Shown: piece by piece, positions 3,325 to 37,023 of the stretch | Numbering within the stretch: the first letter of the stretch is position 1 | Layout: every line of letters starts with the position of its first letter | Origin: an uncultured Lachnospiraceae bacterium | Lineage (GTDB): Bacteria; Bacillota; Clostridia; Lachnospirales; Lachnospiraceae | Direction: 5' to 3' | NCBI GenBank assembly: GCA_902794095.1 | Contig: CADBFZ010000001.1 | Location: forward strand, 62,001-126,000 | DNA length: 64,000 bases | Notes under the pieces: generated by a model | Told to the model about the DNA's origin: nothing | The model's input: only the letters and a program-made list of their open reading frames with translations | Databases searched by the model: none | Made by a program: the position numbers and the translations under genes

Positions 3325-6300
3325 AAGTATAGAAATACAAGGATTTAAATCATTTGCGGTCAAAACCGTTCTTCTGTTTCATGAAGGCGTTACGGGTATC
3401 GTAGGACCCAATGGTTCCGGAAAAAGTAATATCGCCGATGCCGTCAGATGGGTTCTCGGTGAGCAGAGCGTTAAGCAGCTCCGAGGCGGATCCATGCAGG
3501 ACGTCATCTTTTCGGGTACCCAGACAAGAAAGCCTCTTTCTTACGCATATGTTGCGATCACACTCGACAACTCCGATCACGCACTGAATATTTCTTACGA
3601 AGAAGTAACGGTTGCAAGAAGACTTTACAGATCGGGTGAGAGTGAGTATCTCTTAAACGGTTCACCTTGCAGACTTAAGGATGTTAACGAGCTCTTCTTT
3701 GATACCGGTATCGGTAAAGAGGGTTATTCCATTATCGGACAGGGCCAGATCGATAAGATCCTTTCCGGTAAACCCGAAGAGAGAAGAGAACTCTTTGATG
3801 AAGCTGCAGGTATCGTTAAATTCAAGTATCGTAAATCCGCAGCTCTCAAAAAGCTTGATAACGAGCAGAACAATCTTGTCAGAGTAAATGATATTCTGGC
3901 TGAGCTTGAACGTCAGATCGGACCTTTGGAGAGACAGTCTGCCAAGGCTAAGGAGTGGCTCAAGTATAAAGAAGAATTAAAGACCATCGATGTAAACTCC
4001 TTCCTTCTTGAAAATGAAACTCTCAAGAAGGCTGTTACTGACCTTCAGGGTAGACTTGATGTGGCAAGCGCAGACCTTGATACCGCATCCGGTGAATACA
4101 ATAAGGTTAAGGAAGATTACAATTCCGTTCAGATGGAGATGGAAGATCTAGAGGAAGCAATCGAGAAGGCAAGAGAACTTGTCTCCGGTGCAGATTCCAA
4201 CAGACAAAAACTCGAAAGCTCCATCGAACTTCTTAAAGAGCAGATCAAATCCAGCAAGGACAATATCACTCATTTCAGTGAGAGAAAAGAAGCCCTTCTC
4301 GGTGAGATCGAGAAGTACAATGCCGAGAAAGATTCCATCCTTCAGGATTCCGAATCCGAAGAAGAGCAGGCTCAGAAGGTAGAGACCGAAGCTACCGCGA
4401 GAAAAGAAGCTCTCGATAAGGCACAGGAAGAGATCCAGGATCTCAATACCAGAATTGAAGAAACCGCAACCGGTATCATGGATGAGCTCAAGAAGCGTTC
4501 CGAGATTCAGGGACGTATCAGCCACTATACCGCGGTTATTCAGCAGATCGAACTCAGAAAAGCAGAACTTCAGAGCAAGCTCTTAAGAGCACGTTCCGAT
4601 GAGGAAGCAAGAGAAGATTCCATCAAGCAGTATGAAGAGGCATTTGAGAAAGTAAGTGCCGAGATAGCTGAGATGAATAAGAATGCAACCGAACTGGAAG
4701 CTAAGGTTGCAGAGCTCAGATCTTCACTTTCATCCAAGGATGAACAGCTCAGAAGTCTCCAGGAAGAATATCATAAGGAAAACTCCAGATATCAGGCTCT
4801 TGAAGATATTGCCGAGGCATATGAAGGCTACGGTAATTCCGTTAAGAAGATAATGGAGCAGAAGAAATCCGTTCCCGGCATTATCGGTGTTGTTGCGGAT
4901 ATCATCAAGGTTGATAAAAAGTACGAGACCGCTATCGAAATGGCTCTCGGCGGAAACATCCAGAACATCGTTACCAAGGATGAAGCAACCGCTAAGAAGA
5001 TGATAGGCTTCCTCAAAGAGGGCAGACTCGGAAGAGCTACATTTCTTCCTCTCGACAGCGTTAAGGATCCTCAGGAACTTAAGGCTAAGGATGCTCTCAA
5101 TGAAAAGGGAATGATCGGCCTTGCAAGCGATCTTGTTGAGACCGATGACGAATACAGAAATGTTATCAAGAGTCTTCTCGGAAGATTCATTGTTGCAGAT
5201 AACATGGACAATGCCACTAAGGCAGCCAGAAAGTTTAACTATACTCTCAGAGTAGTAACTCTCGAGGGAGAACTTCTTATGCCCGGCGGATCCATTACCG
5301 GTGGTGCATTTAAGAATAACAACAACTTCCTCGGAAAGAGCCGTGAGATCGGTGATCTGAAGAAGAAGGTTGCAAAGCTTTCTGCAGACATAGAAAAGCT
5401 CAAAGCAGAGATCGACGAGACCAGGGAAAACAGAAATATTTCCCGTGCCGAACTCGATAAGATGAAGCTTGATATCCAGAACAAGGTTATCGAGCAGAAT
5501 ACCGCAAGACTTACTCTTCAGGCAGAACGCGACAGATTTGATGAAGAGAGTGAGAATGCAGTAAACCTCAAGCAGGAGCAGCAGGACATCGAGAAGGAAA
5601 TGGTGGATGCAGCAAATGCACGTGATGAGGCTGCTGAAGTTCTTAAGAGCAGTGAATCCAATGAAAAGCGTCTTCGTGAAGAAGAAGCAGATCTCAATGA
5701 AATGCTCAGAGATAAGCAGGCAGTTGAATCTGAAGCTGCAGCCCGCGTAAATGAGTGGGAAGTTGAAGTCCAGAAGATGAAACAGGCTAAGGACTTCAAG
5801 CAGGCTAACCTGAACCGTGTTGAGGAATCCCTGGCAGGTGCAAATAACGAACTTGAAAGCCTGAACAATTCCATCGAGACAAACAACACTGCAATCTCAG
5901 AGAAGGAAGTTCAGATCGAAGAGATCAGAAAGACCATCGATGCTTCTTACGAGGAGCAGGAGAAGTCAGCAGATCTCCTCAAGAATTCACTTTCCAGAAA
6001 AGAAGCTCTTACCGAGAAGCAGAAAGGATTCTTTGAGAATACCGAAAAGCTTCAGGAGAAGATGTCTTCACTTGATAAAGAGGTCAACCGTCTTACCGCA
6101 CAGCGCGATAAGGCTAACGAGACCATGGAGATCCGTATCAATTACATGTGGCAGGAGTACGAGATTACCTTAAGCCAGGCCGCAGAGATGAGAGACGAAT
6201 CTCTTAACGATCTTACCGTACTTAAGCGTGATGCCGCTGAAGTAAGGGATAAGATCAAGAAGCTCGGCGATGTTAACGTCGGTGCTATTGAAGAGTATAA

Positions 6301-6874
6301 GAATGTTTCCGAGCGTTACGAGTCCATGAAGACTCAGCATGACGATCTCATTGAAGCTGCAGATACTCTCAAGAAGATTATTGAAGAACTTGATGAGAAT
6401 ATGAGAACTCAGTTCTCAGAGAAGTTCAAACTCATCAACGAAGAATATGACAAGGTATTCAAGGAACTTTTCGGAGGCGGATCCGGTTCGCTTTCACTTC
6501 AGGATGATGAAGATATTCTTGAATGCGGAATTAACATTTCGGCACAGCCCCCCGGAAAGAAGCTTCAGAACATGATGCAGCTCTCCGGTGGTGAGAAGGC
6601 ACTTTCTGCGATTGCACTTCTCTTTGCAATTCAGAACCTCAAGCCTTCACCCTTCTGTCTCCTGGACGAGATCGAAGCTGCGCTTGATGATAACAACGTC
6701 GGAAGATTCGCTAAGTATCTTCATAAACTTACCAAGAATACCCAGTTCATCTGTATCACTCACAGAAGAGGTACCATGGAACAGGTTGACAGACTCTACG
6801 GTATTACCATGCAGGAGAAAGGCGTATCTTCTCAGGTAGCGGTCAACATGATTGAGTCGGAATTGGATGATTAA
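3314..6874 (+). CDS. smc: Chromosome condensation ATPase SMC
   Basis: SMC forms the condensin core that compacts and separates the chromosome with ScpA and ScpB, which are not in this window. At 1186 residues it has the normal length. The N-terminal head has Walker A GPNGSGKS at 31-38. Two long coiled coils flank a hinge at about 515-640. The C-terminal head has the signature LSGGEKA and the Walker B block LLDEIEAALDD. The start lies inside the rnc 3' end. The last base of its TAA is the first base of the ftsY start. Confidence 0.98.
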   Translation: MFLKSIEIQGFKSFAVKTVLLFHEGVTGIVGPNGSGKSNIADAVRWVLGEQSVKQLRGGSMQDVIFSGTQTRKPLSYAYVAITLDNSDHALNISYEEVTVARRLYRSGESEYLLNGSPCRLKDVNELFFDTGIGKEGYSIIGQGQIDKILSGKPEERRELFDEAAGIVKFKYRKSAALKKLDNEQNNLVRVNDILAELERQIGPLERQSAKAKEWLKYKEELKTIDVNSFLLENETLKKAVTDLQGRLDVASADLDTASGEYNKVKEDYNSVQMEMEDLEEAIEKARELVSGADSNRQKLESSIELLKEQIKSSKDNITHFSERKEALLGEIEKYNAEKDSILQDSESEEEQAQKVETEATARKEALDKAQEEIQDLNTRIEETATGIMDELKKRSEIQGRISHYTAVIQQIELRKAELQSKLLRARSDEEAREDSIKQYEEAFEKVSAEIAEMNKNATELEAKVAELRSSLSSKDEQLRSLQEEYHKENSRYQALEDIAEAYEGYGNSVKKIMEQKKSVPGIIGVVADIIKVDKKYETAIEMALGGNIQNIVTKDEATAKKMIGFLKEGRLGRATFLPLDSVKDPQELKAKDALNEKGMIGLASDLVETDDEYRNVIKSLLGRFIVADNMDNATKAARKFNYTLRVVTLEGELLMPGGSITGGAFKNNNNFLGKSREIGDLKKKVAKLSADIEKLKAEIDETRENRNISRAELDKMKLDIQNKVIEQNTARLTLQAERDRFDEESENAVNLKQEQQDIEKEMVDAANARDEAAEVLKSSESNEKRLREEEADLNEMLRDKQAVESEAAARVNEWEVEVQKMKQAKDFKQANLNRVEESLAGANNELESLNNSIETNNTAISEKEVQIEEIRKTIDASYEEQEKSADLLKNSLSRKEALTEKQKGFFENTEKLQEKMSSLDKEVNRLTAQRDKANETMEIRINYMWQEYEITLSQAAEMRDESLNDLTVLKRDAAEVRDKIKKLGDVNVGAIEEYKNVSERYESMKTQHDDLIEAADTLKKIIEELDENMRTQFSEKFKLINEEYDKVFKELFGGGSGSLSLQDDEDILECGINISAQPPGKKLQNMMQLSGGEKALSAIALLFAIQNLKPSPFCLLDEIEAALDDNNVGRFAKYLHKLTKNTQFICITHRRGTMEQVDRLYGITMQEKGVSSQVAVNMIESELDD

Positions 6875-7950
6875 TGGCTCTTTTCGGCAGAAAAAAGAAC
6901 GAACAACAGGATAATGATTTCAGCGAAGCTCTTGCCAAACTCAGCAAGATTGCAGATGAAGCTGAAAAAGACCCCATTGCCAGAGAACTTCATGAAGAAG
7001 TACCCGTAGACGGCAGGGCTTATCAGGAAGACAAGGAAGCACTCTTTGACAGACTTAAGACCGGTATGACACGTACCAGGGAGAACTTCTCTGCAGGTCT
7101 TGCATCTATCTTTACGGCTTCCGAGATTGATGATGATTTCTATGATGAGCTTGAAGAGTTCCTTATAGGGGCTGATGTCGGTGCGGTTATCACTGAAGAC
7201 ATTCTCGATGAACTTCGTGATAAGGTTAAGGAAAAACATCTTAAGTCCAGAAGCGAATGCCGTTCACTTCTTATTGAATCCATCAGAACCCGTATGGAGA
7301 CTGAAGAGAACGCATACGATTTTGAACATAAGACTTCCGTAGTATTCGTAATCGGAGTCAACGGTGTCGGTAAGACCACAACTATCGGTAAGCTCTCTGC
7401 CAAGCTCAATGCCATGGGCAGAAAAGTTCTTGTTGCAGGTGCGGATACATTCAGAGCGGCGGCCGAGGATCAGCTTAAGGTATGGGCTGAAAGAAGCGGA
7501 GTTCAGATCGTTACCGGTAAAGACGGACAGGATCCCGCATCAGTTGTATATGATGCATGTTCCGCAGCAAGGGCTCGTAATACTGATGTCCTTATAATCG
7601 ATACCGCAGGAAGACTTCATAACAAGAAGAATCTGATGGATGAGCTTGCCAAGATGAACCGCGTAATCGATAAGGAATTCGAAGCGGCTCACAGAGAAAA
7701 CCTTCTTGTCCTTGATGCCACAACAGGGCAGAATGCACTTAACCAGGCAAGAGAATTTAATGAAGCAGCCAAGCTTTCCGGAATTATCCTTACCAAGATG
7801 GACGGAACGGCAAAGGGCGGAATTGCAATCGCCATTCAGGCACAGATGGGTATTCCCGTAAAATACATCGGTGTAGGCGAGAAGATAGAAGATTTACAGA
7901 AGTTTGATGCAGATTCGTTCGTAAGAGCGATATTTGATGCGGAGGAGTAA
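6874..7950 (+). CDS. ftsY: Signal recognition particle receptor FtsY
   Basis: FtsY is the membrane-associated GTPase that docks SRP-bound ribosomes at the translocon; its partner Ffh is encoded at 10220. The 358-residue protein has an acidic, charged N-terminal region, the helical N domain, then the G domain with P-loop GVNGVGKTT, DTAGRLH and TKMDGTAKGG. It overlaps smc by one base and is followed within two bases by the ilvA start, so it sits in one transcript with both neighbours. Confidence 0.97.
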   Translation: MALFGRKKNEQQDNDFSEALAKLSKIADEAEKDPIARELHEEVPVDGRAYQEDKEALFDRLKTGMTRTRENFSAGLASIFTASEIDDDFYDELEEFLIGADVGAVITEDILDELRDKVKEKHLKSRSECRSLLIESIRTRMETEENAYDFEHKTSVVFVIGVNGVGKTTTIGKLSAKLNAMGRKVLVAGADTFRAAAEDQLKVWAERSGVQIVTGKDGQDPASVVYDACSAARARNTDVLIIDTAGRLHNKKNLMDELAKMNRVIDKEFEAAHRENLLVLDATTGQNALNQAREFNEAAKLSGIILTKMDGTAKGGIAIAIQAQMGIPVKYIGVGEKIEDLQKFDADSFVRAIFDAEE

Positions 7951-19442: not shown

Positions 19443-19801
19443 TGAATAACAGAAAGACCGGTTCCTATCATGAAACCGTGGCAATTGAATATCTTACCCG
19501 CAAAGGTTATAAGATAATAGACAGAAACGTTTTAAACAAATGCGGTGAAATAGATATAATATGTTTGTCGGATAAAAATGAACTTGTCTTTGCGGAAGTG
19601 AAATTCCGAAGTTCCGATAAAGCCGGGGATCCCCTTGAAGCAGTTGATGCGAGAAAGATTCGTAAGATATGCAAAGCGTCTGCGGCATACATTAATTACC
19701 ACCGTGAATATTCCGATTATCAGGTCAGATATGATGTTATCGGGGTATATGAGAATAACGAAATTAAGCACATTGAAAATGCGTTTTATTATGAGGTTTG
19801 A
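19439..19801 (+). CDS. yraN: YraN/UPF0102 family endonuclease-like protein
   Basis: The 120-residue protein has the PD-(D/E)xK-like core of the YraN family: GEIDIICLSDKNELVFAEVK, with D, E and K as putative metal and catalytic residues. The cellular role is not established. The start is one of two tandem ATGs overlapping the ylqH stop. The response regulator gene follows three bases later, so transcription probably runs through. Confidence 0.9.
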   Translation: MMNNRKTGSYHETVAIEYLTRKGYKIIDRNVLNKCGEIDIICLSDKNELVFAEVKFRSSDKAGDPLEAVDARKIRKICKASAAYINYHREYSDYQVRYDVIGVYENNEIKHIENAFYYEV

Positions 19802-19803
19802 TC

Positions 19804-20499
19804 ATGGCTAATATACTCGTTTGTGATGATGACAAAGATATAGTTTCCGCAATAGAAATATATCTGCTCGAAGATTCCCATGTCATCTATAAGGCATATG
19901 ACGGATACCAGGCTCTCGATATTCTCGAAAAAGAGGACATTCAGCTTGTTATCTTAGATATTATGATGCCTGAAATGAGCGGTATCGAGGTTGCCGGCAA
20001 GATCAGGGAGAAGAGCGAAGTTCCCATTATTTTCCTGTCTGCTAAATCCGAAGAGTCCGATAAAGTCGACGGACTTAATGCCGGCGGAGACGACTATGTA
20101 ACCAAACCTTTCTCACCCGCAGAGCTTACCGCAAGAGTCAGATCTAACTTAAGACGTTATACTCAGTTCGGTAATAATAATGATAACAACAACAATCACG
20201 TATACTCTGCCGGAGCTCTTTGCATCAATGATGAAAGTAAGAGCGTAACCGTGGACGGTGAGCCTGTTAAGCTTACACCCATTGAATATAATATCCTGTT
20301 CCTTCTTCTTAAGAATAAGGGTACTGTTTTTTCAACGGATAAGATATTTCAGTCCATTTGGAATGAGACTCCCATCGCTACGGACAATACCGTTGCGGTT
20401 CATATAAGACATATCAGAGAGAAGATTGAGATTAATCCCGGACAGCCCAAGTTCTTAAAAGTTGTATGGGGCGTAGGTTATAAGATAGAAGATATCTGA
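19804..20499 (+). CDS. OmpR-family response regulator
   Basis: The 231-residue regulator has a receiver domain (about 1-118) with acidic pair D8/D9, phospho-acceptor D52 in LDIMMPEMSG and K101. A short Asn-rich linker (GNNNDNNNNH, about 123-132) leads to a C-terminal winged helix (about 135-228, LTPIEYNILFLLLKNKG). The ATG at 19804 is preferred over a TTG six bases before it. The sensor kinase starts two bases after its stop, so the pair forms one two-component system. Its targets cannot be told from the window. Confidence 0.95.
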   Translation: MANILVCDDDKDIVSAIEIYLLEDSHVIYKAYDGYQALDILEKEDIQLVILDIMMPEMSGIEVAGKIREKSEVPIIFLSAKSEESDKVDGLNAGGDDYVTKPFSPAELTARVRSNLRRYTQFGNNNDNNNNHVYSAGALCINDESKSVTVDGEPVKLTPIEYNILFLLLKNKGTVFSTDKIFQSIWNETPIATDNTVAVHIRHIREKIEINPGQPKFLKVVWGVGYKIEDI

Positions 20500-20501
20500 T
20501 A

Positions 20502-23198
20502 ATGAACAGAGTACTTGTTAGAAAAATCTTATTACATATAAGCGTTCATCTGTGCGCTTTTATGGCCTTTATATTGGCTGCCGATATTTTGTTCGGAAGC
20601 TATGTTTCTGTTGATTATATCGGGGATTCCGAGAAGTATATCCTCGATCCGTTCCCTATGTCCGAAGATGAACTCGATAAAATCGTTACTGATATCTTCG
20701 CACATCAGGCAAGCGATATCATGAGATATACCGCAGCCTGTAGGATCTTAAGAGTTTCAAACGGTATCGAAGTTAACAGAATGGTGGATATTTCCGACTA
20801 TTATACCGGGGCTTCCAAAATTAAGATCAGATATTCCGTATCTGACCTGATCAATTTCGGAAGGCGCGGTGTTTCTTATGTTGAGAAAAACTACAGTATT
20901 ACAGACTTCGTATATCATTACGGAGATCCTATAAATGTTCAGAATTTCGATCTGGATGAATACGGTAATCTGTATTTTAAGGGATTTGAAAGCGTTAATA
21001 AAAACCGTGGTTCCGATTCCTATACTCCCGAAGGCGATGACCTTATCGTCGGAGACGGAGATAAGAAGATTCTTGATGCAATGTCCGAACTTGAACCTGC
21101 GGATATTATGCATCTTATTGTGGAGTACTGCATCAGACATTATCCCGAAGATGTAAGCATGACCGTTTGGGATGACGGTATGGTTTATGTTACCGTTAAA
21201 GAACCCAATATGGAAGGTGATTCAGGCAAAGAACTTGAAGACGAAGAACTTATCAGAAACTGGGATTCTTACTTTATTGCAATCGATGAACTTAAAGCTG
21301 CGGCTACTTTGTTTTCATCCTGTTACGACATTTATCGTGAAGGCCAGACCATCTATGATTCGGACAAGATGAATCTTTCCTATCATATCAGAACTACCGA
21401 TTCTCTCGGTATTTCCCATGTATATACCAATGATCTTGACTCCAAGAAATTCGACGATACGGAGCTTACCGATATCTATTCGGGACATAAGCATTATCTG
21501 ATCTGTTATTACGACGATCTTGAATATTCCACGCTCTCCGATATCAATGAGTCCGTTATTACGGATGTCATTAAAGCCTTCCCCACCGTATATCCGGATC
21601 AGACCTGTGTATGGATGTGTCTTGATGATAATTTCTCTCAGGCAGAGGATATCTACTATAATGTCAGCTTTAAATATAATGACGTAAAACAGCTTTCGAG
21701 ACTCTATGCACTTTTGATAACAGTCTTTGCACTTTTATGGCTTCTTTCTTTCTCATACTTGGTATTTATCACCGGCGTTGTGGAAAGGGACGGAAAAGAA
21801 GAGTATATCCTGCTTCCTCAGGATAAAGTCTGGATCGAACTTTTGATCCTTCTCACATATGCATTCTTTGTTCTCTTCAGGTATTACACCAATTACCTGG
21901 GAGGATTGCTTGATAATAACTTCTCGGAGTTTTCATCCATAAGCGATAAACTTCTTAAGGATTCCGGAATATCTTCCTATGTTGTGTTCGGACTGTTCGG
22001 ATTGTCCGTCAGCATGGCGCTTTCTTTTGTAATCTTCTCCATCGTACGAAGAATCAGAGCCGGCGTTTTGTACGAGTATTCTTTTACCAGGAAGATAAGA
22101 CAGCTCTTTGAGTGGTTTGCGCTTTCGCTTTCCGGTGGAACCGGTGCTGCGGCTACCGTGCTTCTTCCTTATGTGCTTTTCCTGGGGTCAAACTTCGGTG
22201 GAATATTCCTTATTCTTCACCTTATTAAATCCAAGGTTATTGTATCTGCAATTCTTGTCGGAGGATTGCTGTTATTCCTGGATGTGTCCGTGGGTATAAC
22301 CATGTTCCTGATTACAGCTGAGAAAAAACAGCTTCTTGATGGTATTGCAAGGATCAGGGGCGGCGAGACGGATTATAAGATCAATGTTAAAAACCTCAGA
22401 GCAGAGAACAGAAATCTTGCGGAGAGCATTAATAATATCGGTGAAGGTATCAAACAGGCGGTTGAAGATTCCATCGTTGAGGAGCACCTTAGAACCGAGC
22501 TTATTACCAATGTTTCCCACGACCTTAAAACTCCTCTTACTTCTATAATCAATTATTCCGATCTTCTTAAGAGAGAGAATCTTACCGAGGAGCAGAAAAA
22601 AGAGTACCTTAAGGTCATTACCGATAAATCCATTAAGTTAAAGAAGCTTCTTGAAGACCTTCTTGAGGCATCCAAACTTTCATCCGGCAAGATCGAGATA
22701 ATCAAGGCAAGAACCAACCTGACAGAGCTCATAAACCAGGCTCTCGGCGAGTATGAGGGAAGGTTTAAGGAAAAGAACCTTGATGTTGTTACCAATGTCT
22801 TTCCCAGAGTCCTTGTTTTTGCCGATGCGGCATGTATGTGGAGAGTTCTGGATAATCTCTTCGAGAATATCTGTAAATATGCCATGAGTGGAACCAGAGT
22901 TTACTTCGAACTCATAGCATTCAACGGTGAAGTTGAGATCAAGGTTAAGAACGTTTCCAGGGCAAAACCTGAATTTCAGGGTTATGAGCTTACGGAAAGA
23001 TTCATAAGAGGAGACCAGAGCAGGTCCGGTGAAGGTTCGGGACTTGGTCTTTTCATAGCAAAGAGCCTTATTGAGGCTCATAACGGTAAATTTGAGGTTG
23101 TTGTAGACGGAGACCAGTTTACAACCATCATTACCATGAAGGAACTTGGCTCCGACAACACCGATTGGGACTACATTTACGGGGACGATTTGTCGTAA
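20502..23198 (+). CDS. Sensor histidine kinase with large extracellular domain and polytopic membrane region
   Basis: The 898-residue kinase partners the regulator upstream. It has a first membrane helix (about 11-31), a large outside region of about 370 residues, then six or so helices between 402 and 604. A HAMP-like linker (605-660), the HisKA domain with H673 in NVSHDLKTPLTS and an ATPase domain (RVLDNLFENICKYA and GEGSGLGLFIAKSL) follow. All catalytic motifs are intact. The outside region matches no sensor domain I know; its signal is unknown. The start has little ribosome site and may rely on coupling. Confidence 0.93.
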   Translation: MNRVLVRKILLHISVHLCAFMAFILAADILFGSYVSVDYIGDSEKYILDPFPMSEDELDKIVTDIFAHQASDIMRYTAACRILRVSNGIEVNRMVDISDYYTGASKIKIRYSVSDLINFGRRGVSYVEKNYSITDFVYHYGDPINVQNFDLDEYGNLYFKGFESVNKNRGSDSYTPEGDDLIVGDGDKKILDAMSELEPADIMHLIVEYCIRHYPEDVSMTVWDDGMVYVTVKEPNMEGDSGKELEDEELIRNWDSYFIAIDELKAAATLFSSCYDIYREGQTIYDSDKMNLSYHIRTTDSLGISHVYTNDLDSKKFDDTELTDIYSGHKHYLICYYDDLEYSTLSDINESVITDVIKAFPTVYPDQTCVWMCLDDNFSQAEDIYYNVSFKYNDVKQLSRLYALLITVFALLWLLSFSYLVFITGVVERDGKEEYILLPQDKVWIELLILLTYAFFVLFRYYTNYLGGLLDNNFSEFSSISDKLLKDSGISSYVVFGLFGLSVSMALSFVIFSIVRRIRAGVLYEYSFTRKIRQLFEWFALSLSGGTGAAATVLLPYVLFLGSNFGGIFLILHLIKSKVIVSAILVGGLLLFLDVSVGITMFLITAEKKQLLDGIARIRGGETDYKINVKNLRAENRNLAESINNIGEGIKQAVEDSIVEEHLRTELITNVSHDLKTPLTSIINYSDLLKRENLTEEQKKEYLKVITDKSIKLKKLLEDLLEASKLSSGKIEIIKARTNLTELINQALGEYEGRFKEKNLDVVTNVFPRVLVFADAACMWRVLDNLFENICKYAMSGTRVYFELIAFNGEVEIKVKNVSRAKPEFQGYELTERFIRGDQSRSGEGSGLGLFIAKSLIEAHNGKFEVVVDGDQFTTIITMKELGSDNTDWDYIYGDDLS

Positions 23199-27825: not shown

Positions 27826-28830
27826 ATGGCAAAGATTTCTGTTCTTGGCGGTGGTACTTGGGCAATCGGACTTACTATTCAGCTTGCTACTGCAGGTCAT
27901 GACGTAACGGTTTGGTCCGCACTTGAATCCGAGATTGAGATGCTTTCATCCACGCATGCACATGTAAATCTCCCCGGAGCTACCATCCCCGAATCGGTCA
28001 AATACACTCTCGATGATAAAGAAGCCGTTACGGATAAAGATATCCTTGTAATGGCAGTCGCAAGTTCTTTCACCAGAAAAACAGCTAAGAGAATAGCTCC
28101 TTTGGTTAAGCAGGGTCAGATAATCGTTGACGTAGCCAAGGGAATTGAAGAAGGAACTCTCAAGACTCTTTCGGAACAGATAGAGGATGAGATTCCGGGA
28201 GCAAAAGTAGTAGCATTGTCGGGACCTACTCATGCAGAGGAAGTCAGCAGATTTATGCCCACCACCATTGTTGCTTCATCACCGGATAAGGAAATTGCAA
28301 AGTACATTCAGGACATCTTCATGACGGACACCCTGAGAGTTTATACCAGCTCCGATATTAAAGGAGTTGAGCTTGGAGGATCTCTTAAAAATGTCGTTGC
28401 TTTGGCCGCAGGTATCGCTGACGGACTCGGCTACGGAGATAATGCAAAGGCAGCAATCATTACCAGAGGTATTGCCGAGATTTCAAGACTCGGAGTAAAG
28501 ATGGGATGCAGACCCGAAACCTTCAGCGGACTTACAGGCATGGGCGACTTAATAGTAACCTGTGCCAGCATGCATTCCAGAAACAGAAGATGCGGTATTT
28601 TACTCGGTCAGGGCAAGAGCCTTGAGGAAGCTCAGAAAGAAGTCGGAATGGTAGTTGAGGGAATTTACTCAGCCAAGGCTGCCATCGAACTCGGTAAGAA
28701 ATACGAAGTGTCACTTCCCATCATTGAACAGGTTAATCTGATTTTATTCGAAGGAAAAGATGCAGGTACGGCCGTTAAGGAATTAATGCTTAGGGAAAAG
28801 AAGGATGAAGTATCCGATACTCAGTGGTGA
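27826..28830 (+). CDS. gpsA: NAD(P)-dependent glycerol-3-phosphate dehydrogenase
   Basis: GpsA reduces dihydroxyacetone phosphate to glycerol 3-phosphate, the PlsY substrate. The 334-residue protein has the Rossmann loop GGGTWAIGL at 8-16 (an Ala follows the Trp where Gly is usual), catalytic Lys in GSLKNVVALAAG, and the C-terminal helical domain with GLTGMGDLIVTC. The end overlaps the next gene by 26 bases, so the signalling cluster downstream may be read from this operon. Confidence 0.96.
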   Translation: MAKISVLGGGTWAIGLTIQLATAGHDVTVWSALESEIEMLSSTHAHVNLPGATIPESVKYTLDDKEAVTDKDILVMAVASSFTRKTAKRIAPLVKQGQIIVDVAKGIEEGTLKTLSEQIEDEIPGAKVVALSGPTHAEEVSRFMPTTIVASSPDKEIAKYIQDIFMTDTLRVYTSSDIKGVELGGSLKNVVALAAGIADGLGYGDNAKAAIITRGIAEISRLGVKMGCRPETFSGLTGMGDLIVTCASMHSRNRRCGILLGQGKSLEEAQKEVGMVVEGIYSAKAAIELGKKYEVSLPIIEQVNLILFEGKDAGTAVKELMLREKKDEVSDTQW

Positions 28831-30274
28831 TTATTCCGTATACATCATAATACTGTCGGTCTTTTTACTGATTGCGGTTAACTTATTGATCGCGTCATGC
28901 TACATCTTTGTCAAATACAAGAATAAATATATGGCTGCTCTGACCAAATCACGCGAGGAAGTCGGAATAGCCGTAGAAAATAAAAATCTGGTTTTATCCA
29001 ATGTTTCCCGTCTTATCAGAAATCAGATGATCCGTGTTGTGGGAATGAATGAACTTATTTTCCGCGAAAGTACGGATAATGTTACCAGAGAAAGAACTTC
29101 TGAGATCAGAAGTTCCGTTGATGATATCCTTGCCCTCATGCAGGGGGTACAGGATTATTCTCTTCTTGAAAGAAATCTTTTTGATATGGTCACGGAGGAA
29201 TTCGATCTTGCTTCACTTATTATCGATTCCGTAACCTCAACAGCACCTCTTTTCAGGTCCAATGACCTTGTTCTTGATCTGTCAGTTGATAAAGATCTTC
29301 CCAGGAAAATTACAGGAGACACATATAAACTCAGAAGAAGCATTATCTATCTGCTTTCTTTTGCATGCAAGAAAAACAAAGATGGATCACTTAAGCTTGC
29401 GGTTTATCTTGATGATTCGTCCGAGGGAAGATGCGATATAACTTTTAAACTTCATGCCACAAGTCTTGATATAAATTTTGAGAACATAGAATATCTTCTT
29501 ACACATGAAGAAGCCGCTAACGATATGATCTTTTCCCACAGCGAGCTTGATCTTCTTGATCTTTATCTAACTCAGAAATATTTGAGTATCATCGGTTCTG
29601 TACTTGAGATAAGAAATCCCGAAAATGATGCATATGATATTACGTTCAGCATTAATTCGAAAATAATAGATGATACTGTTATCGGAGATATCAGAAATGC
29701 TTACAGAGCCCGTAATGTTCGTCGTACCGATACGAGTATGAAGTTTATAGCTCAGGATGCAAGGATTTTGTTTATTGATGAGAAGGAGACTTCGATTGCT
29801 TATGTCGGAGAACTTCTTCAAAATACCGGCATCTTCATGGATCATGCAAGTGATGCTACAGAAGCTGCGACCAAACTGGCCAAGAATGATTATGATCTTC
29901 TCATGTTACATGATTCCATAAAGGGAGATGACGGAAAATATCTCATCGATAAAATAAAGGGCGGTGAATTCGGAATGGCCAATTCAAGAATCCCGAGTAT
30001 TGCCGTCACTTCGGATATCAGAACTTCTCTATCCGAAACACAAAGCCATATGAAATTTGATACATATATTCTTAATCCCATCGATCCTGAAGAACTGGAG
30101 AAGATCCTGATAGAATATATGCCTTCTTCAAAGATGGAAATTATAGCCGATTACGGATTGTTCCCGGGTATCCGAAGTGCTGAGGATATTAGGAAATATG
30201 CTGAAGGATATGAAGATCTCTACGAAAATGCAGTAAAGATATATAAAAGATCCAAAGCATACAAAGAAAAGTAA
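28805..30274 (+). CDS. Degenerate membrane histidine kinase/receiver (pseudokinase)
   Basis: The 489-residue protein has one N-terminal helix (about 12-36), a HisKA-like region, an ATPase-like region and a receiver-like domain, all without their key residues. The phospho-His site reads NVSRLIRN, with R69 where NxSHEIRT is usual. The N-box Asn is replaced by F186 in YLLSFACKK, and no clear G1/G2 boxes remain. In the receiver, the acidic pair is D325/E326 but the phospho-acceptor is H369 (YDLLMLHDS) and the Lys is N424. The fold is probably kept and catalysis lost. The next gene encodes a hybrid protein lacking an ATPase domain. Confidence 0.8.
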   Translation: MKYPILSGDYSVYIIILSVFLLIAVNLLIASCYIFVKYKNKYMAALTKSREEVGIAVENKNLVLSNVSRLIRNQMIRVVGMNELIFRESTDNVTRERTSEIRSSVDDILALMQGVQDYSLLERNLFDMVTEEFDLASLIIDSVTSTAPLFRSNDLVLDLSVDKDLPRKITGDTYKLRRSIIYLLSFACKKNKDGSLKLAVYLDDSSEGRCDITFKLHATSLDINFENIEYLLTHEEAANDMIFSHSELDLLDLYLTQKYLSIIGSVLEIRNPENDAYDITFSINSKIIDDTVIGDIRNAYRARNVRRTDTSMKFIAQDARILFIDEKETSIAYVGELLQNTGIFMDHASDATEAATKLAKNDYDLLMLHDSIKGDDGKYLIDKIKGGEFGMANSRIPSIAVTSDIRTSLSETQSHMKFDTYILNPIDPEELEKILIEYMPSSKMEIIADYGLFPGIRSAEDIRKYAEGYEDLYENAVKIYKRSKAYKEK

Positions 30275-30300
30275 CTGTTAATTCTAAGCGGAGGATGTGA

Positions 30301-32916
30301 ATGCTTCTTCAGCTTGATTACAATATATATTTCGAACTGGCGACACTACCTGTTGATCTGATAGTGCTTTTCTTTGTGCTGGGCAATTACAAGAACGAAG
30401 AGGAGGCAAATTTCAGGTTTAAGATCTTTGCATCTTTTGTTACCGTAGGATGCGTTCTTGATATTGTCACTGCAATCATCTGCAGTATGGAACCCATTCC
30501 CAACTGGTTCAGGATGTTCTTCTATACTTATGTCAATTTCTTGTCCGTATGTGCGGGTATGGCTTATTACCTCTATATGTGCGCCTTTTCAAAATTTACT
30601 CAGCGAAAAGGATTGCTCATACTCAGCTATATCGTAAATTCGATTTATTTAATTCTTCTGTTCATTAATATCTTTACGGGAATTGCATACTCCTATGATG
30701 AAGCGGGAGATGCAGTTCATGGACCGCTTTTTGTTATCGTAGTATATATGGTTCCCTTGTTCTATGTAATTATGGGTACCTTTGTTGTCTTTTGGCAGAA
30801 GAAGAAATTTACAAAGGTTCAGAGAATATTTATAACTGCAGGACTCCTTGAGATTCTTGCTATTTTCCTGTTTCAGTCCGGTAGAAACGAAAGCACTCTG
30901 ATGATCTATTACATCGGTTCCGTTGGTATGCTTATTCTGTTTCTTACCCTTGAAACTCCGGATCACCTAAGGCTTTTGAAAACCGTTGATGAACTTGAGG
31001 AAGCCAGAACAGGTGAAAAGAATGCGCTGGATAAGATCAAAGCATCCGATGAGACAAACAGCAGACTTTTGGTTCATCTGTCCCATGAGATGAAAACTCC
31101 CGTAAATGCCATTCTCGGATACAGCGAAGCCATTATGAAGTCCGACGTATCCGATGATGTAAAAGAAAATGCAACCAATGTATTTAAGGGAGCTAAGAGG
31201 CTTAATCAGTTTATGGATGAACTTACCGATTATGCCTCGGATCGAAATCGTCTCTCCGATACCATGATGCCCTATTATGCGGAATACGATAAGACCGGAA
31301 GAGAGCTTTACGGGGAACTCAGACCGTCAGATATTAAAGCTGTTGCCAAAAGCTTACACGAAAACAGAAGGTATAATTTCAGACGTGACTCGGCTCAGTA
31401 CAAGATACTTTGCGTGGATGATAATGAACTGAATATCGATCTTCTGGTAAGAATAGTTAAGTCATTCGGATTTGCGGTGGATTCTGCCGTTAACGGTAAG
31501 GATGCCATTGAACTGGTCAAAAAGAATTCATACGATCTTATATTCATGGATCATATGATGCCTATCATAGACGGTGTTGAAGCCATGCATATTATGAGGG
31601 ATGAAGGGTTATGCGACCTTACTCCCATTATTGTGGTTACGGCAAATGCCGTCAGAGGGGAAAAAGAGAAGTATTTGAAAGAGGGATTTGATTCGTATAT
31701 CCCGAAGCCTTTTTCCAACGGTTCTATTTTACGAGTAATCGGTAAATTCCTTCCTATCGCTACCATGGATACGCTGGTTAAGGTAAATGATAAAGCGGGT
31801 ATTTCCAGATTTATGCTCGCTTCCACTTTTTCAAGACCTCTTGTATGCCCTTTGGCCAGATTTTTGATTTCGGGCACAGATTCTGATAATATAAACAGAA
31901 TTGCAAGACTTTTTTCCACTACCATGGGAAAAGTCGATATTGTATATGACGGTGACGAATGTATCAGTCATATTTCTGAGAATGAGTATGATATCATATT
32001 CGTTGAAGACGGTATGAGTGATTCATCCGGCAGGCTTCTTAAGACCTATATCTGGAACTATGTTAATGTTCCGAGTATTCTCATAACCGATATCTCTAAG
32101 GCTCATGATCCTTCCGTTATTTATGAGAGTTACACGGATTATGTGGATCTGAATGTCGGACCTGAGACAATTGATGCAATCCTTTTACTGTATCTTCCCA
32201 AGAGCAAAGTAGGAGTTATAGGCTCCGAACAGGCTATGAATGAAGATACAGCAGAAAAAGGTGCGGTCGAAAACATCGTTACCGTATCCGATTCGGTCAA
32301 TATGTCAGCACCTGTTGAAGAAGAGGTTCAGATTCCCGAAGAGATACGTAATATACCGGGTCTTGATGTAGAACTCGGTATTGAAAATTGCGGATCCGAA
32401 GAAGGACTTCTCAGGGCTTTGGATATTTTTGCGGGAAATGCCAATATCAAAGCTGATGAGATAGAAGATTTTTACAGGTCAGACAGTATTGAAGATTACA
32501 CCATACGTGTTCATGCCCTTAAGAGTTCTGCAAGGATTATAGGAGCTGTGAATCTGTCCGAAAAAGCAAGGCTTCTTGAAGAATCGGGTAAGAATAAGGA
32601 CAGAGAATATATAACCGCACACACATTTGAGACTGTAGAAGAGTTCAGAAATCTCGGAAATATCTTAAAGGCTGCTTTTGAAGATAAGAATGATGATGCA
32701 AAAGAAATCATTTCTCCGGAGAAACTTAAGGATGCCTACAGTACTATATATGAACTTGCGTTAATGATGGATTACGACAGTTTGGAGCTGATATTTGAAT
32801 CGCTTAAATCGTATTCTTTTGAAGAGAAAGACCGTAACAAACTCGCTGCGATTAAGGCCGCCATGGATGAACTGAACTGGGAAGGCGTACTTGCGGCTGT
32901 TAAGGAGTCATTATGA
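30301..32916 (+). CDS. 7TM hybrid phosphorelay protein without an ATPase domain (HisKA-REC-REC-HPt)
   Basis: The 871-residue protein has about seven N-terminal helices (to residue 216), then HisKA with H262 in HLSHEMKTPVNAILG. Only about 55 residues separate HisKA from the next domain, so no ATPase domain fits. Receiver 1 (about 366-485) is intact: D373/D374, D417, T447, K469. Receiver 2 (about 512-632) is degenerate, with Glu E569 at the phospho-acceptor. An HPt domain follows with H738 in HALKSSAR, then about 70 helical residues. RBS GGAGG is strong. It cannot phosphorylate itself unless a partner supplies the ATPase. Confidence 0.85.
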   Translation: MLLQLDYNIYFELATLPVDLIVLFFVLGNYKNEEEANFRFKIFASFVTVGCVLDIVTAIICSMEPIPNWFRMFFYTYVNFLSVCAGMAYYLYMCAFSKFTQRKGLLILSYIVNSIYLILLFINIFTGIAYSYDEAGDAVHGPLFVIVVYMVPLFYVIMGTFVVFWQKKKFTKVQRIFITAGLLEILAIFLFQSGRNESTLMIYYIGSVGMLILFLTLETPDHLRLLKTVDELEEARTGEKNALDKIKASDETNSRLLVHLSHEMKTPVNAILGYSEAIMKSDVSDDVKENATNVFKGAKRLNQFMDELTDYASDRNRLSDTMMPYYAEYDKTGRELYGELRPSDIKAVAKSLHENRRYNFRRDSAQYKILCVDDNELNIDLLVRIVKSFGFAVDSAVNGKDAIELVKKNSYDLIFMDHMMPIIDGVEAMHIMRDEGLCDLTPIIVVTANAVRGEKEKYLKEGFDSYIPKPFSNGSILRVIGKFLPIATMDTLVKVNDKAGISRFMLASTFSRPLVCPLARFLISGTDSDNINRIARLFSTTMGKVDIVYDGDECISHISENEYDIIFVEDGMSDSSGRLLKTYIWNYVNVPSILITDISKAHDPSVIYESYTDYVDLNVGPETIDAILLLYLPKSKVGVIGSEQAMNEDTAEKGAVENIVTVSDSVNMSAPVEEEVQIPEEIRNIPGLDVELGIENCGSEEGLLRALDIFAGNANIKADEIEDFYRSDSIEDYTIRVHALKSSARIIGAVNLSEKARLLEESGKNKDREYITAHTFETVEEFRNLGNILKAAFEDKNDDAKEIISPEKLKDAYSTIYELALMMDYDSLELIFESLKSYSFEEKDRNKLAAIKAAMDELNWEGVLAAVKESL

Positions 32917-33674
32917 CGGATTCCGTTCTGATAATAAGTAAAGTTGATAGTTTTATGGTCAATGCGATCAAGGTTAAACTTGAATCGTCGGGATTTGTGT
33001 GTGCTTTTGTATCCACCGATTCGCCCAATATCAACAAAAGCATTGACGATAAGAGAGTCATCGTTTTGTACGTGGATGATTCCATATTTGAAAAGCCTGA
33101 TCTCTTAATATATCTGAAGGATAAATGTAACGATGATGACAAGAAGCTTATACTCATCGGTTCGCCTTCAGAGTTTACGGGAATATCGAATTACATATCC
33201 GATAATTTCCTGGCAGGAAAGCTTGAAAGACCCTTTGATATCAATGAACTTATTACCATACTCATCGGACTTCAATCAACGACCGTAAATGATGATGATA
33301 AAAAGAGCATTCTTATCGTAGATGATGATGCGACCTATTTAAGAACTGTACGTGATTGGCTCAAAGACACTTATAAAGTTTATATGGCCAATTCCGGAAT
33401 CCAGGCACTAACCTGGCTTGCCAAAAACCATGCCGATCTGATCCTGCTGGATTATATGATGCCTGTTACAACGGGCAAGGAAATTCTCGAGATGCTTAGG
33501 AGCGAGGATTTTTCCAAGGATATTCCTGTAATATTCCTCACCGGCAAATCCGATATGGAAACGGTCAAATCGGTTATGCATCTTAAACCTGAAGGATATC
33601 TTCTGAAATCAATCAATATGGCTGTGCTCAGAAGTGAACTTGAAAAATTTTTTAACGGAGAAAATCTGACATGA
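32913..33674 (+). CDS. Tandem receiver protein, second domain intact
   Basis: The 253-residue cytoplasmic protein has two receiver folds and no output domain. The first (about 3-120) lacks the acidic pair and the Lys and has a DD near 55-56. The second (about 132-250) is complete: D137/D138, D180 in LLDYMMP, T210 and K232. The HPt of the preceding gene is an obvious candidate phosphodonor. The gene overlaps both neighbours by four bases. The acting partner may be the AAA+/VWA pair downstream; this is inference. Confidence 0.88.
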   Translation: MTDSVLIISKVDSFMVNAIKVKLESSGFVCAFVSTDSPNINKSIDDKRVIVLYVDDSIFEKPDLLIYLKDKCNDDDKKLILIGSPSEFTGISNYISDNFLAGKLERPFDINELITILIGLQSTTVNDDDKKSILIVDDDATYLRTVRDWLKDTYKVYMANSGIQALTWLAKNHADLILLDYMMPVTTGKEILEMLRSEDFSKDIPVIFLTGKSDMETVKSVMHLKPEGYLLKSINMAVLRSELEKFFNGENLT

Positions 33675-34480
33675 ACAAATTCGACGGAACAAAAGGATAT
33701 GTAGCAAGTCCCGAACTTATGGACTCGGTTAATATTGCAATAGCTCTTCAGAAGCCCCTTCTTGTAAAAGGAGAACCCGGCACCGGTAAGACCATGCTTG
33801 CACAGTCCGTTGCCGATGCGCTCGGAAAGAAGCTTATCATCTGGAATATCAAGTCCACCACAAAAGCTCAGGACGGTCTTTATATGTACGATACCATTCA
33901 GAGACTTTATGACGGACAGTTCGGCGAAGGCGGAGTTGATGATATTGCTCATTACATTAAGCTCGGAAAGCTGGGTGAAGCTTTTGAGTCCGATGAGCAG
34001 GTTGTACTTCTTATAGACGAGATCGATAAAGCAGATCTTGAGTTCCCCAACGACCTTCTCTGGGAGCTTGATCAGATGGAGTTTTATATTAACGAGACTA
34101 AGAGAACCGTTAAAGCTAAGACAAGACCCATCGTAATCATCACTTCAAATGCAGAGAAGGAACTTCCCGATGCGTTCTTAAGAAGATGTATTTTCCACTA
34201 TATCGAGTTCCCCGGAAGAGAACTCATGAGTGAGATAGTTAAGGTTCATTTCCCTGATGTTGAGGAGAATCTTCTTAACGAGGCAATGGATGTGTTCTAT
34301 CAGATTCGTGATATAAGAGACATTCGTAAGAAGCCTTCAACATCCGAGCTCATTGACTGGATCAATGCACTTCAGATCGGGGGAATTCCTTACGGTCAGA
34401 TTAAGGCTAAGCTTCCTTTCATCGGAGTTGTGGTTAAGAAAGATGAGGATATGGATCTGGCCACTCACCAGAACTTTTAA
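33671..34480 (+). CDS. MoxR-family AAA+ ATPase
   Basis: The 269-residue ATPase has Walker A GEPGTGKT at 34-41, Walker B LLIDEID at about 113-119, sensor-1 TSN at 158-160 and arginines at 171-172. MoxR ATPases act with VWA proteins as chaperones or remodelling machines, and a VWA gene follows. The start overlaps the receiver gene by four bases, which couples it to the signalling genes. The client is unknown. Confidence 0.94.
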   Translation: MNKFDGTKGYVASPELMDSVNIAIALQKPLLVKGEPGTGKTMLAQSVADALGKKLIIWNIKSTTKAQDGLYMYDTIQRLYDGQFGEGGVDDIAHYIKLGKLGEAFESDEQVVLLIDEIDKADLEFPNDLLWELDQMEFYINETKRTVKAKTRPIVIITSNAEKELPDAFLRRCIFHYIEFPGRELMSEIVKVHFPDVEENLLNEAMDVFYQIRDIRDIRKKPSTSELIDWINALQIGGIPYGQIKAKLPFIGVVVKKDEDMDLATHQNF

Positions 34481-34511
34481 AACTTTTAAGCATCTTTACT
34501 TTTTATAAATT

Positions 34512-35720
34512 ATGTTTTTGAATTTCTTTGAAAGTTTAAGAAAGCATGGGATCAATGTCACGTTAGGGGAGTGGCTTGATCTTATGAATGCCCTGGACAG
34601 CGGACTGATAGGCGGTTCGCTTTCTAGGTTCTATTATGGTGCAAGGATGATCCTTGTTAAGAGCGAGACCGATTTCGATAAGTATGACGAAGCATTTGAT
34701 GAGTGCTTTAAGGCAGCTCAGTCAGATCCCGAGATCGGTGCCGAAATGCTCAGATGGCTTGATAAATCCGATATGATGCAGCTTGCTGAGATGGAAGCCA
34801 AAGACCACCTTAACAAGATGGAAGGCGAAGGCATCATAATCGACAAAGAAGATGTTGAGCAGAAGTTTAAGCAGCGTCTTAAAGACCAGGATTCCGAACA
34901 TAACGGCGGATCCTTCTGGATCGGAACCATGGGTAAGACTTCCTTTGGTAATACCGGAGGTAATATCGGTGGTGTAAGAGTAGGCGGAATGACAGGTTAC
35001 CAGTCCGCATTTGCGGTCATGGGTGCAAGAAAGTACCGCGACTTCAGAGACGACAGAGTCATGACAAACCGTCAGTTCCAACTGGCTTTCAGAAGACTCA
35101 GGCAGTTCTCATCAAGACTTGATACTACGGAAAGAGAACTTGATATCGATAAGACTGTCGATGAAACCTGTAATCAGGGAGGCGTTCTTAAGATAGAGAT
35201 GAGAAAGCCCAGGAAAAACTCCGTCAAGCTCCTTCTTTTGATGGATTCGGGAGGAACAATGATTCCTTATTCATCTCTTTTGAACGAGTTGTTCCAGTCC
35301 GTTAACAAAAGTAATCACTACAAGGAAGTAAAATGTTATTATTTCCATAATTGCATTTATTCCCATGTATATAAGACTCCGGAATGCGAAAACGGAGACT
35401 GGGTTGAAACAAATTGGCTTTTCCGTAACACGGATAAGGATTATAAGGTTATAATAGTCGGTGATGCCGCCATGGCACCTGAAGAATTCTATTCCGATAC
35501 GGGTAACTACCGCGGCCCCAATGACGGATACAGCGGGGAAGAGTGGCTTAAATCCCTTAAACGCCACTATAAGAAGGTTGTGTGGCTCAATCCCAAGATG
35601 GCACCCGGAAATGCGCCTTGGAGAGAGATTGAGACCGTTCTTAAGCAGATGTTTCCTATGTATAAGCTTACTGTAAGCGGTCTTGATAAGGCTATGAGCA
35701 AACTTATGGAAACCAGATAA
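34512..35720 (+). CDS. VWA-domain protein of the CoxE type
   Basis: The 402-residue protein has an N-terminal helical region, a Gly-rich middle (about 131-160) and a C-terminal VWA domain. The metal site is D245-S-G-G-T in LLLMDSGGTM, with D318 in IIVGDAAMAP. CoxE-like proteins pair with MoxR ATPases, as here. No Shine-Dalgarno sequence is visible before the ATG and the 31-base gap carries a repeated CTTTTAA, so its translation may be weak or start elsewhere. Confidence 0.9.
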   Translation: MFLNFFESLRKHGINVTLGEWLDLMNALDSGLIGGSLSRFYYGARMILVKSETDFDKYDEAFDECFKAAQSDPEIGAEMLRWLDKSDMMQLAEMEAKDHLNKMEGEGIIIDKEDVEQKFKQRLKDQDSEHNGGSFWIGTMGKTSFGNTGGNIGGVRVGGMTGYQSAFAVMGARKYRDFRDDRVMTNRQFQLAFRRLRQFSSRLDTTERELDIDKTVDETCNQGGVLKIEMRKPRKNSVKLLLLMDSGGTMIPYSSLLNELFQSVNKSNHYKEVKCYYFHNCIYSHVYKTPECENGDWVETNWLFRNTDKDYKVIIVGDAAMAPEEFYSDTGNYRGPNDGYSGEEWLKSLKRHYKKVVWLNPKMAPGNAPWREIETVLKQMFPMYKLTVSGLDKAMSKLMETR

Positions 35721-35799: not shown

Positions 35800-37023
35800 A
35801 TGGGTATTTATGAAGAGCTGCAGGCGAGAGGCCTTATTGCTCAGACTACTGACGAAAACGAGATCAGAGATCTTATTAATAATGGTAAAGCAACCTTCTA
35901 TATAGGCTTTGACTGCACTGCAGATTCACTTACCGCAGGACACTTTATGGCTCTTACTCTTATGAAGAGACTTCAGATGGCCGGAAACAAGCCCATCGCT
36001 CTTATCGGAGGCGGAACCACCATGATTGGCGATCCTTCCGGAAGAACCGATATGAGAAAGATGCTTACCAGAGAAGATATCGATCACAATGCCGAGTGCT
36101 TTAAGAAGCAGATGGAGAAGTTCATCGATTTCGGTGAAGGCAAGGCAATGATGGTTAATAACGCCGACTGGCTTATGAACCTTAACTACATTGATCTACT
36201 TCGTGAGGTTGGCGCTTGCTTTTCTGTAAACAACATGCTTAGAGCAGAGTGCTACAAGCAGCGTATGGAAAAGGGACTTTCTTTCCTTGAGTTTAACTAC
36301 ATGATAATGCAGTCTTACGACTTCTATTACATGTTCCAGAAGTACAATTGTAATCTTGAGTTCGGCGGTGACGATCAGTGGAGCAACATGCTTGGCGGAA
36401 CCGAGCTCATCAGACGTAAACTCGGCAAGGACGCACATGCCATGACCATTACCCTTCTTACCGATTCCAACGGTAAAAAGATGGGTAAGACCGCAGGTAA
36501 TGCCGTATGGCTTGATCCCAACAAGACTTCTCCTTTCGATTTCTATCAGTACTGGAGAAATGTCGGTGATGCCGATGTAATGAAGTGCATCAAGATGCTC
36601 ACATTCCTTCCCATCGAACAGATTCAGGAGATGGAGAAGTGGGATGATTCCAGAATCAACGAAGCAAAGAAGATCCTTGCTCATGAACTTACCGAGCTTG
36701 TACACGGTAAGGAAGAGGCTGATAAGGCAGAAGCAGGTTCCGCAGCACTCTTCGGAGGCGGTGATCTTTCAAATGCTGATATCCCTACCGTTAAGATCGA
36801 GGAAGCTGATTACAGAGACGGTAAGATCGATATTCTCGGAATCCTCGTTAAAGCAGGTCTTTGCCCCACCAGAAACGAAGCTCGTCGTGCTGTTGAGCAG
36901 GGCGGCGTAACCGTTGACGATGAGAAGGTTACTGACATTAAGACTCTCTACAGTGCTGAAGATCTTAAGGACGGAAAACTTGTAAGACGCGGTAAAAAAG
37001 CATACAAAAAGGTGACTTCATGA
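35800..37023 (+). CDS. tyrS: Tyrosyl-tRNA synthetase
   Basis: TyrS charges tRNA-Tyr. The 407-residue class I enzyme has the HIGH-like motif TAGHFM at about residue 45, the KMSKS-like loop KKMGKTAG and a C-terminal S4 RNA-binding domain (about 345-405). Length is normal for the TyrS type of Firmicutes. It overlaps the phosphorylase gene by four bases. Confidence 0.97.
   Translation: MGIYEELQARGLIAQTTDENEIRDLINNGKATFYIGFDCTADSLTAGHFMALTLMKRLQMAGNKPIALIGGGTTMIGDPSGRTDMRKMLTREDIDHNAECFKKQMEKFIDFGEGKAMMVNNADWLMNLNYIDLLREVGACFSVNNMLRAECYKQRMEKGLSFLEFNYMIMQSYDFYYMFQKYNCNLEFGGDDQWSNMLGGTELIRRKLGKDAHAMTITLLTDSNGKKMGKTAGNAVWLDPNKTSPFDFYQYWRNVGDADVMKCIKMLTFLPIEQIQEMEKWDDSRINEAKKILAHELTELVHGKEEADKAEAGSAALFGGGDLSNADIPTVKIEEADYRDGKIDILGILVKAGLCPTRNEARRAVEQGGVTVDDEKVTDIKTLYSAEDLKDGKLVRRGKKAYKKVTS

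Follow-up and report, generated by a model that had tools for sequence, protein, structure and literature searches.

The stretch of DNA analysed here, a window of 64,000 nucleotides from a Lachnospiraceae draft genome (80% complete), carries at positions 28805–35720 the genes of a pseudokinase (PK), a hybrid protein (HYB), a tandem receiver (TREC), a MoxR ATPase (MOXR) and a von Willebrand factor A protein (VWA), listed in Table 1. As a first-pass annotation had described, the open reading frame (ORF) calls place five genes on the same strand with spacings of no more than 31 bases and 4-base overlaps (PK/HYB +26, HYB/TREC −4, TREC/MOXR −4 and MOXR/VWA +31 bases). The co-directional run starts further upstream, at der-plsY-gpsA, because PK overlaps the end of gpsA (28830) by 26 bases. 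The claimed domain content was recovered by Pfam or profile matches in all five proteins, and a Pfam search agreed that none of them has a DNA-binding domain.

Table 1. Genes and domains of the locus, in positions of the window
Feature	Position	Strand	Description
gpsA	27826..28830	+	upstream housekeeping gene; 26-base overlap with PK; marks insertion point
PK, 489 amino acids	28805..30274	+	pseudo-histidine kinase, one transmembrane segment, receiver
HYB, 871 amino acids	30301..32916	+	hydrophobic segments, DHp, receiver 1, weak pseudo-receiver 2, HPt
HYB DHp domain, HExKTP motif	31057..31239	+	motif in 15/15 orthologues
HYB HPt domain, HALKSS motif	32422..32625	+	motif in 15/15 orthologues
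TREC, 253 amino acids	32913..33674	+	tandem receiver, no output domain
MOXR, 269 amino acids	33671..34480	+	MoxR-type single-module AAA+ ATPase (AAA_5)
VWA, 402 amino acids	34512..35720	+	CoxE-like VWA protein
tyrS	35800..37023	+	downstream housekeeping gene of the neighbourhood

Judged by its sequence, PK is a pseudokinase. Pfam recognised its receiver (REC, 32.3 bits), scored HisKA at 12.4 bits against a cut-off of 26.9 and gave no HATPase match at E ≤ 1; in hhalign, the PK region aligned to HisKA at 98.8% and to HATPase at 98.1%. The residues reported as lost in the first pass are indeed replaced: in the window, the DHp histidine is Arg69, the N-box asparagine is Phe186 and the receiver aspartate is His369. 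Arginine and phenylalanine stand at the first two positions in all 14 orthologues, in which the G1/G2 motifs are not recognisable. The receiver aspartate position varies (His or Asn in the five members of the window's subclade, Asp in six, Glu in one and Arg in two), and hence its loss is not common to the whole clade. An AlphaFold model from six sequences (mean predicted local distance difference test score, pLDDT, of 58) resembled structures of ShkA, RetS, GacS and DivL in Foldseek. PK has both marks of the RetS/DivL-type class, a histidine kinase fold without the phospho-histidine and loss of the ATP motifs; since RetS retains its phospho-histidine, the first of these suits DivL better than RetS. 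As far as this model goes, PK may be likened to the regulatory or pseudokinase partners in RetS/GacS and DivL/CckA, although it has a single transmembrane (TM) segment and no sensor domain was recognised in it. According to a review (PMC12189002), RetS acts on GacS, and DivL, which is catalytically inactive, acts on CckA.

HYB matched HisKA (37.8 bits), REC (100.7 bits) and, below the cut-off of 24.6, HPt (20.6 bits) in Pfam; no HATPase domain was found in this search, so that the HATPase_c of an HPt-hybrid kinase is absent. In the window, only about 55 residues separate DHp and receiver 1, which leaves no room for a CA domain. H262 (in SHEMKTP), D417 and H738 are kept, and the HE[MI]KTP motif with its histidine, the receiver 1 aspartate and the HPt histidine are shared by all 15 orthologues. 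The aspartate of receiver 2 is replaced by glutamate in 14 of 14 HYBs (Glu569 in the window, as annotated), and in the remaining genome, G024, this receiver is gone; receiver 2 itself was recognised from alignment and from weak hidden Markov model matches of 9–19 bits, with none in some orthologues. The seven TM segments claimed for HYB appear as seven hydrophobic segments at a relaxed threshold and as six at a stricter one, by hydropathy and with no dedicated TM predictor. Because HYB also lacks the ATPase domain, neither PK nor HYB can be a kinase, unlike GacS and CckA. The module thus contains a pseudokinase, a hybrid without ATPase domain and an intact set of transfer residues.

A second such hybrid was found in another genus. 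Among the ORFs examined, 36 rows combine REC, HPt and CA, some genes being counted twice in this table; REC and HPt without CA were found in the HYBs of the window's clade, in a protein of 346 amino acids (locus L136) and in locus L155. The latter (4454–6766, genome G031) encodes a hybrid of 770 amino acids which keeps the DHp histidine, REC and HPt and is followed after 1 base by a TREC; compared with an intact hybrid of 961 amino acids from the window's own genome (L128), it misses the CA domain together with the segment that links it to the end of DHp. Loss of the engine beside a TREC thus happened at least twice, with the reservation that the second case is a single draft genome.

TREC contains one clear receiver (residues 133–243), and its N-terminal half is receiver-like only by profile comparison (hhalign probability 87). 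D137–D139, D180 and K232 are kept, and the transfer residues are present in 14 of 14 orthologues. 'TREC' and 'hybrid-TREC cassette' are labels coined here, no published name having been found; the first denotes proteins of about 250 amino acids with a degenerate and an intact receiver and no output domain, encoded directly after an HPt hybrid, and the protein of the window fits it. TREC matches (E < 1e-45) occur in 27 of the 31 genomes of the window's genus, which comprises gut and rumen Lachnospiraceae, and many of these genomes hold several at about 35–47% identity. The 14 orthologues at ≥70% identity all adjoin MOXR. Outside the window's clade, an intact HisKA-HATPase-REC-HPt hybrid immediately precedes 28 of 49 TREC copies, and hybrid-TREC cassettes are also present at L127, L128 and L130. 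Moreover, for 14 of these 49 copies the next gene starts within 60 bases and encodes 787–804 amino acids, and hence a TREC can have an effector gene beside it; one such gene tested by Pfam was HD_5, and homologues of it occur in G002, G004 and G012. The locus resembles these cassettes in having HYB followed by TREC at −4 bases with intact REC and HPt motifs, and differs from them in the missing ATPase domain, the extra weak pseudo-receiver, the pseudokinase gene before and moxR after.

MOXR matched AAA_5 (48.2 bits; Walker A at 34–41, Walker B at 113–119), with AAA_3 only below cut-off, and VWA matched VWA_CoxE (27.7 bits, cut-off 26.4), so that an AAA+ protein with both Walker motifs stands beside a VWA_CoxE protein. 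The metal-ion-dependent adhesion site (MIDAS) of VWA is of a variant kind, D245-S-G-G-T249 with D318, invariant in 27 of 27 aligned relatives; both aspartates are kept and the two serine positions of canonical DxSxS are Gly and Thr. The N-terminal region is helical in a weak model, whose mean pLDDT of 53 was too low for a fold search, and against PDB sequences a single-sequence search gave nothing and a profile search one chance match. The best VWA match is that of Lachnospiraceae bacterium P6A3 (98%), in which all five genes are present at locus L004. As in CoxD-CoxE and NorQ-NorD, a single-module AAA+ protein thus stands beside a VWA protein with a helical N-terminal region, whereas the motif DSGGT in place of DxSxS and the adjoining relay set this pair apart. 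Kaur et al. (2020, PMC7159879) derive the MoxR-vWA conflict systems from CoxD-CoxE, and the vWA-associated effectors described there include receivers sporadically and no histidine kinase domains. Another paper reports that MoxR-VWA pairs remodel client complexes, with a VWA finger modelled in the MoxR pore (PMC9976466). More specific names were rejected: MadB/MadC (NCBIfam NF047784/NF047783) scored 121.3 against a cut-off of 475 and 21.7 against 600 bits, the NCBIfam name SAV_2336 fell far below its cut-off, and a search for literature on MadB, MadC and VWA together found none.

The MoxR-VWA pair is older than the signalling insertion, and in this respect the single five-gene unit proposed in the first pass did not stand. 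VWA relatives were found in 29 of the 31 genus genomes and, at E ≤ 1e-60, in 25 of 150 family genomes (24 of 149 genera). MOXR shares the locus with VWA in 77 of 80 loci, the best 80 of at least 180; these overlap the genus genomes (for example L004 and G001:C2), and the counts are therefore not added. The order that recurs in them is der-plsY-gpsA-(often MTHFR, other strand)-MOXR-VWA-tyrS, in which MTHFR was confirmed by Pfam at L120 and L178. In 13 genus genomes outside the clade, MoxR-VWA follows gpsA with no signalling gene between gpsA and VWA.

By comparison of gene orders, PK, HYB and TREC form an insertion that separates gpsA from moxR in a single clade, where it is conserved by descent. 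The order PK-HYB-TREC-MOXR occurs in 14 of the 31 genus genomes, all of this clade, and the module is in this sense more than a chance arrangement. Among these carriers, VWA is complete and on the same contig in 11, cut by the contig end in G027, on another contig in G030 and not found in G023. The remaining 17 genomes are the 13 with the pair alone, G024, G028, G004 and G012, in which no VWA was found. A tree of gpsA, MOXR and VWA, which includes every carrier except G030 and G023, joins these 12 to G024 and G028 (100/100) and places G004 outside the clade. The spacing of TREC and MOXR is −14 to +9 bases in the 14 carriers and G004; this range, like the substitution rates below, uses longest-ORF starts, which may be wrong in single genomes. 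G024 has HYB only: PK, pseudo-receiver 2 and TREC are gone, and its protein of 623 amino acids (L104, 6411–8282, minus strand) joins PK-like first codons to the first TM segment of HYB. Since it starts with PK-like codons, this HYB is the product of a deletion; the short hybrid as an ancestral form was rejected on this start and on its nested position in the clade. In G028, MOXR-VWA directly follows gpsA and none of the three genes is present; the tree gives this genome no resolved position, and loss and primary absence of the relay are both possible.

In genome G004, a second relay occupies the same place. The order there is gpsA-(MTHFR, other strand)-hybrid-TREC-MOXR-VWA, and the hybrid, of 1410 amino acids, is an intact Reg_prop-HisKA-HATPase-REC-HPt protein that overlaps TREC by 4 bases, with a gap of 9 bases between TREC and MOXR. 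In a TREC tree of 63 rows, the clade's 14 TRECs form their own group (100/100). The MOXR-adjacent TREC of G004 branches first within another group, of 26 (100/100), to which every one of the 14 HD-followed TRECs belongs but no TREC of the clade. Because this tree separates G004 from the clade, the hybrid-TREC pairs of two lineages precede the same moxR, and this favours a functional link and control through TREC. Two more hybrids, a Na:Ala symporter and a second TREC lie between VWA and tyrS in G004, and hence the pair is flanked on both sides by hybrids and TRECs (L120, G004:C73:50000-69000); one of these hybrids has DegV between REC and HPt. Elsewhere in this genome (L199, 6103–12781, G004:C100), a hybrid is followed by an HD gene with no TREC between, and the order in G012 is hybrid-TREC-HD.

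We propose that a relay without its own kinase switches MoxR-VWA directly through TREC, and not through gene activation, which we consider plausible at somewhat less than an even chance. In this mechanism, a membrane HPt-hybrid with TREC, a cassette of a kind common in the genus, would have been inserted between gpsA and moxR-vwa in the clade ancestor. Phosphate would be supplied by a different hybrid kinase in the cell, or would exit through HYB as a phosphatase, and PK would bind the DHp of HYB, as RetS and DivL bind their partners, and set the direction. Transfer would run along the DHp histidine and REC aspartate of HYB, the HPt histidine and Asp180 of TREC, which HPt would load or unload. 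TREC may then dock on the MoxR ring or on VWA and turn the co-translated pair up or down without transcription. The wider claim, that a kinase-less phosphorelay controls MoxR-VWA directly and that such coupling arose at least twice in the genus by cassettes placed before moxR, is held more tentatively.

CpdR with ClpXP is a case of a receiver working with an AAA+ machine. Another precedent is RssB, described as a receiver-based adaptor of ClpXP (PMC7226468). The proposed system shares with both a receiver protein and an AAA+ machine and differs in that they serve a protease, whereas MoxR-VWA is of chaperone type and TREC is a bare tandem receiver. Full-text literature searches, judged by titles and abstracts, found no relay acting on MoxR-VWA. 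If true, a phosphorelay would directly control a MoxR-class AAA+ chaperone, an output to which none of the papers listed in these searches pointed, and this would give a handle on the role of the Lachnospiraceae MoxR-VWA pair. Hybrids of two lineages also keep phosphotransfer residues after loss of the ATPase domain. The locus offers a natural comparison, with related genomes that have the full relay, HYB only, none, or a different relay at the same place.

Several observations weigh against direct control and leave a positional explanation as a strong rival, close behind it and quite possible in our judgement: the hybrid-TREC cassette would have entered a housekeeping operon and share no more than a transcript with moxR-vwa, and TREC would have its target elsewhere in the cell, for example in the HD-domain proteins encoded after TREC paralogues. 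Of the 31 genus genomes, 14 carry the pair but no relay, namely G028 and the 13 that fall outside the clade. Other genera contributed 23 loci, 22 of them usable, and in none of these 22 was HYB or TREC found beside the pair; in this survey a usable VWA ORF was obtained at 123 of 130 loci, L182 being one of the seven that were set aside. Since G028 is without all three genes and G024 without PK and TREC, the relay is dispensable. In addition, a different hybrid-TREC cassette overlaps uvrB by 4 bases (L130 in G001, near 6977–6980), and a gap of 48 bases separates a TREC from a putative uvrB, matched by length and start only, at L131 in G002 (7266). Control of the neighbour is not expected for a TREC before uvrB, and this case favours plain insertion before housekeeping genes. 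Other genes also fill the gpsA-moxR gap elsewhere, namely Hsp70 (L051), GH2 (L079), EAL (L067) and proteins without a Pfam match, and at L023 an OmpR-type two-component system lies between MOXR and VWA. Moreover, G004 could have exchanged one relay for another, in which case its relay would not be a new gain.

The linkage proposed in the first pass fared unevenly under this comparison. The same gene order does occur in other Lachnospiraceae, inside the genus and in none of the other genera surveyed. Co-occurrence of TREC and VWA is weak: at least 7 of the 150 genomes of the family contain both (Fisher p 0.01, rising to 0.06 when the window's genus is excluded), and outside the genus no TREC lies near VWA among the matches listed; at L178, one of the usable loci from other genera, a receiver-domain gene stands two genes downstream of VWA. 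The adjacency had been called accidental if the signalling genes and the pair were never linked elsewhere; relay and pair are linked repeatedly, as seen inside this genus only. Against mere position stand the two lineages of hybrid-TREC directly before moxR, TREC adjoining moxR both times. In addition, no unlinked close copy of TREC (≥70% identity) or of HYB was among the matches listed in 14 and 15 carrier genomes, respectively.

The direction of action might also be reversed, MoxR-VWA assembling or remodelling a membrane PK-HYB complex and the relay being its client, which we regard as unlikely. Pairs of NorQ/NorD type are described as remodelling membrane enzyme complexes (PMC9976466), and PK and HYB may form one membrane complex. 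However, many genomes that have neither HYB nor PK conserve the pair, and it is the soluble receiver, not a membrane protein, that adjoins moxR.

All genes of the locus are under purifying selection, and none is pseudogene-like. The ratio of nonsynonymous to synonymous substitution rates (dN/dS) in nine genome pairs was 0.07–0.17 for PK, 0.06–0.10 for HYB, 0.014–0.07 for TREC, 0.003–0.017 for MOXR, 0.005–0.04 for VWA (eight pairs) and 0.015–0.05 for gpsA, values that are rough as dS exceeds 1 in many cells. Decay of a former kinase, of which the three signalling genes would be the remains, might be suggested by the lost PK motifs and CA domain, by PK having the fastest rate of the five genes in most pairs, and by the loss of PK and TREC in G024 and the absence of all three in G028. 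This reading is largely refuted and was rejected on dN/dS, which does not exceed 0.17 for any of the three, with frames intact in 14 of 14 PKs and 15 of 15 HYBs and invariant transfer residues in HYB and TREC. The relay had been called broken; this is apt for the kinase function, which is gone, and not for the transfer residues of HYB and TREC, which are kept, or for PK, which is under selection.

Further genes around the pair were recorded in other Lachnospiraceae. Directly upstream of MOXR stands an AAA+ gene with AAA_lid_6 at L076 (6855–9080) or an Hsp70 gene at L051 (6577–8298), which is a possible chaperone context. A conserved third chaperone partner was not found, the other-genus neighbours tested being mixed (aldehyde dehydrogenase, GDPD, ScpAB, glycosidases, MTHFR, a secretion ATPase and unknown proteins). 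An unrelated further case of signalling genes at the pair is L023 (6804–9909), where genes for an OmpR-type regulator and a histidine kinase separate MOXR from VWA; together with the relays of two lineages, this case leans towards a functional link. Three other MoxR genes (AAA_3) lie in the same genome as the window (G000, contigs C2, C3 and C11). Within the window, a separate pair of a putative response regulator (233 amino acids) and a putative membrane histidine kinase (898 amino acids) was noticed by eye at 19798–23198, upstream of the housekeeping run.

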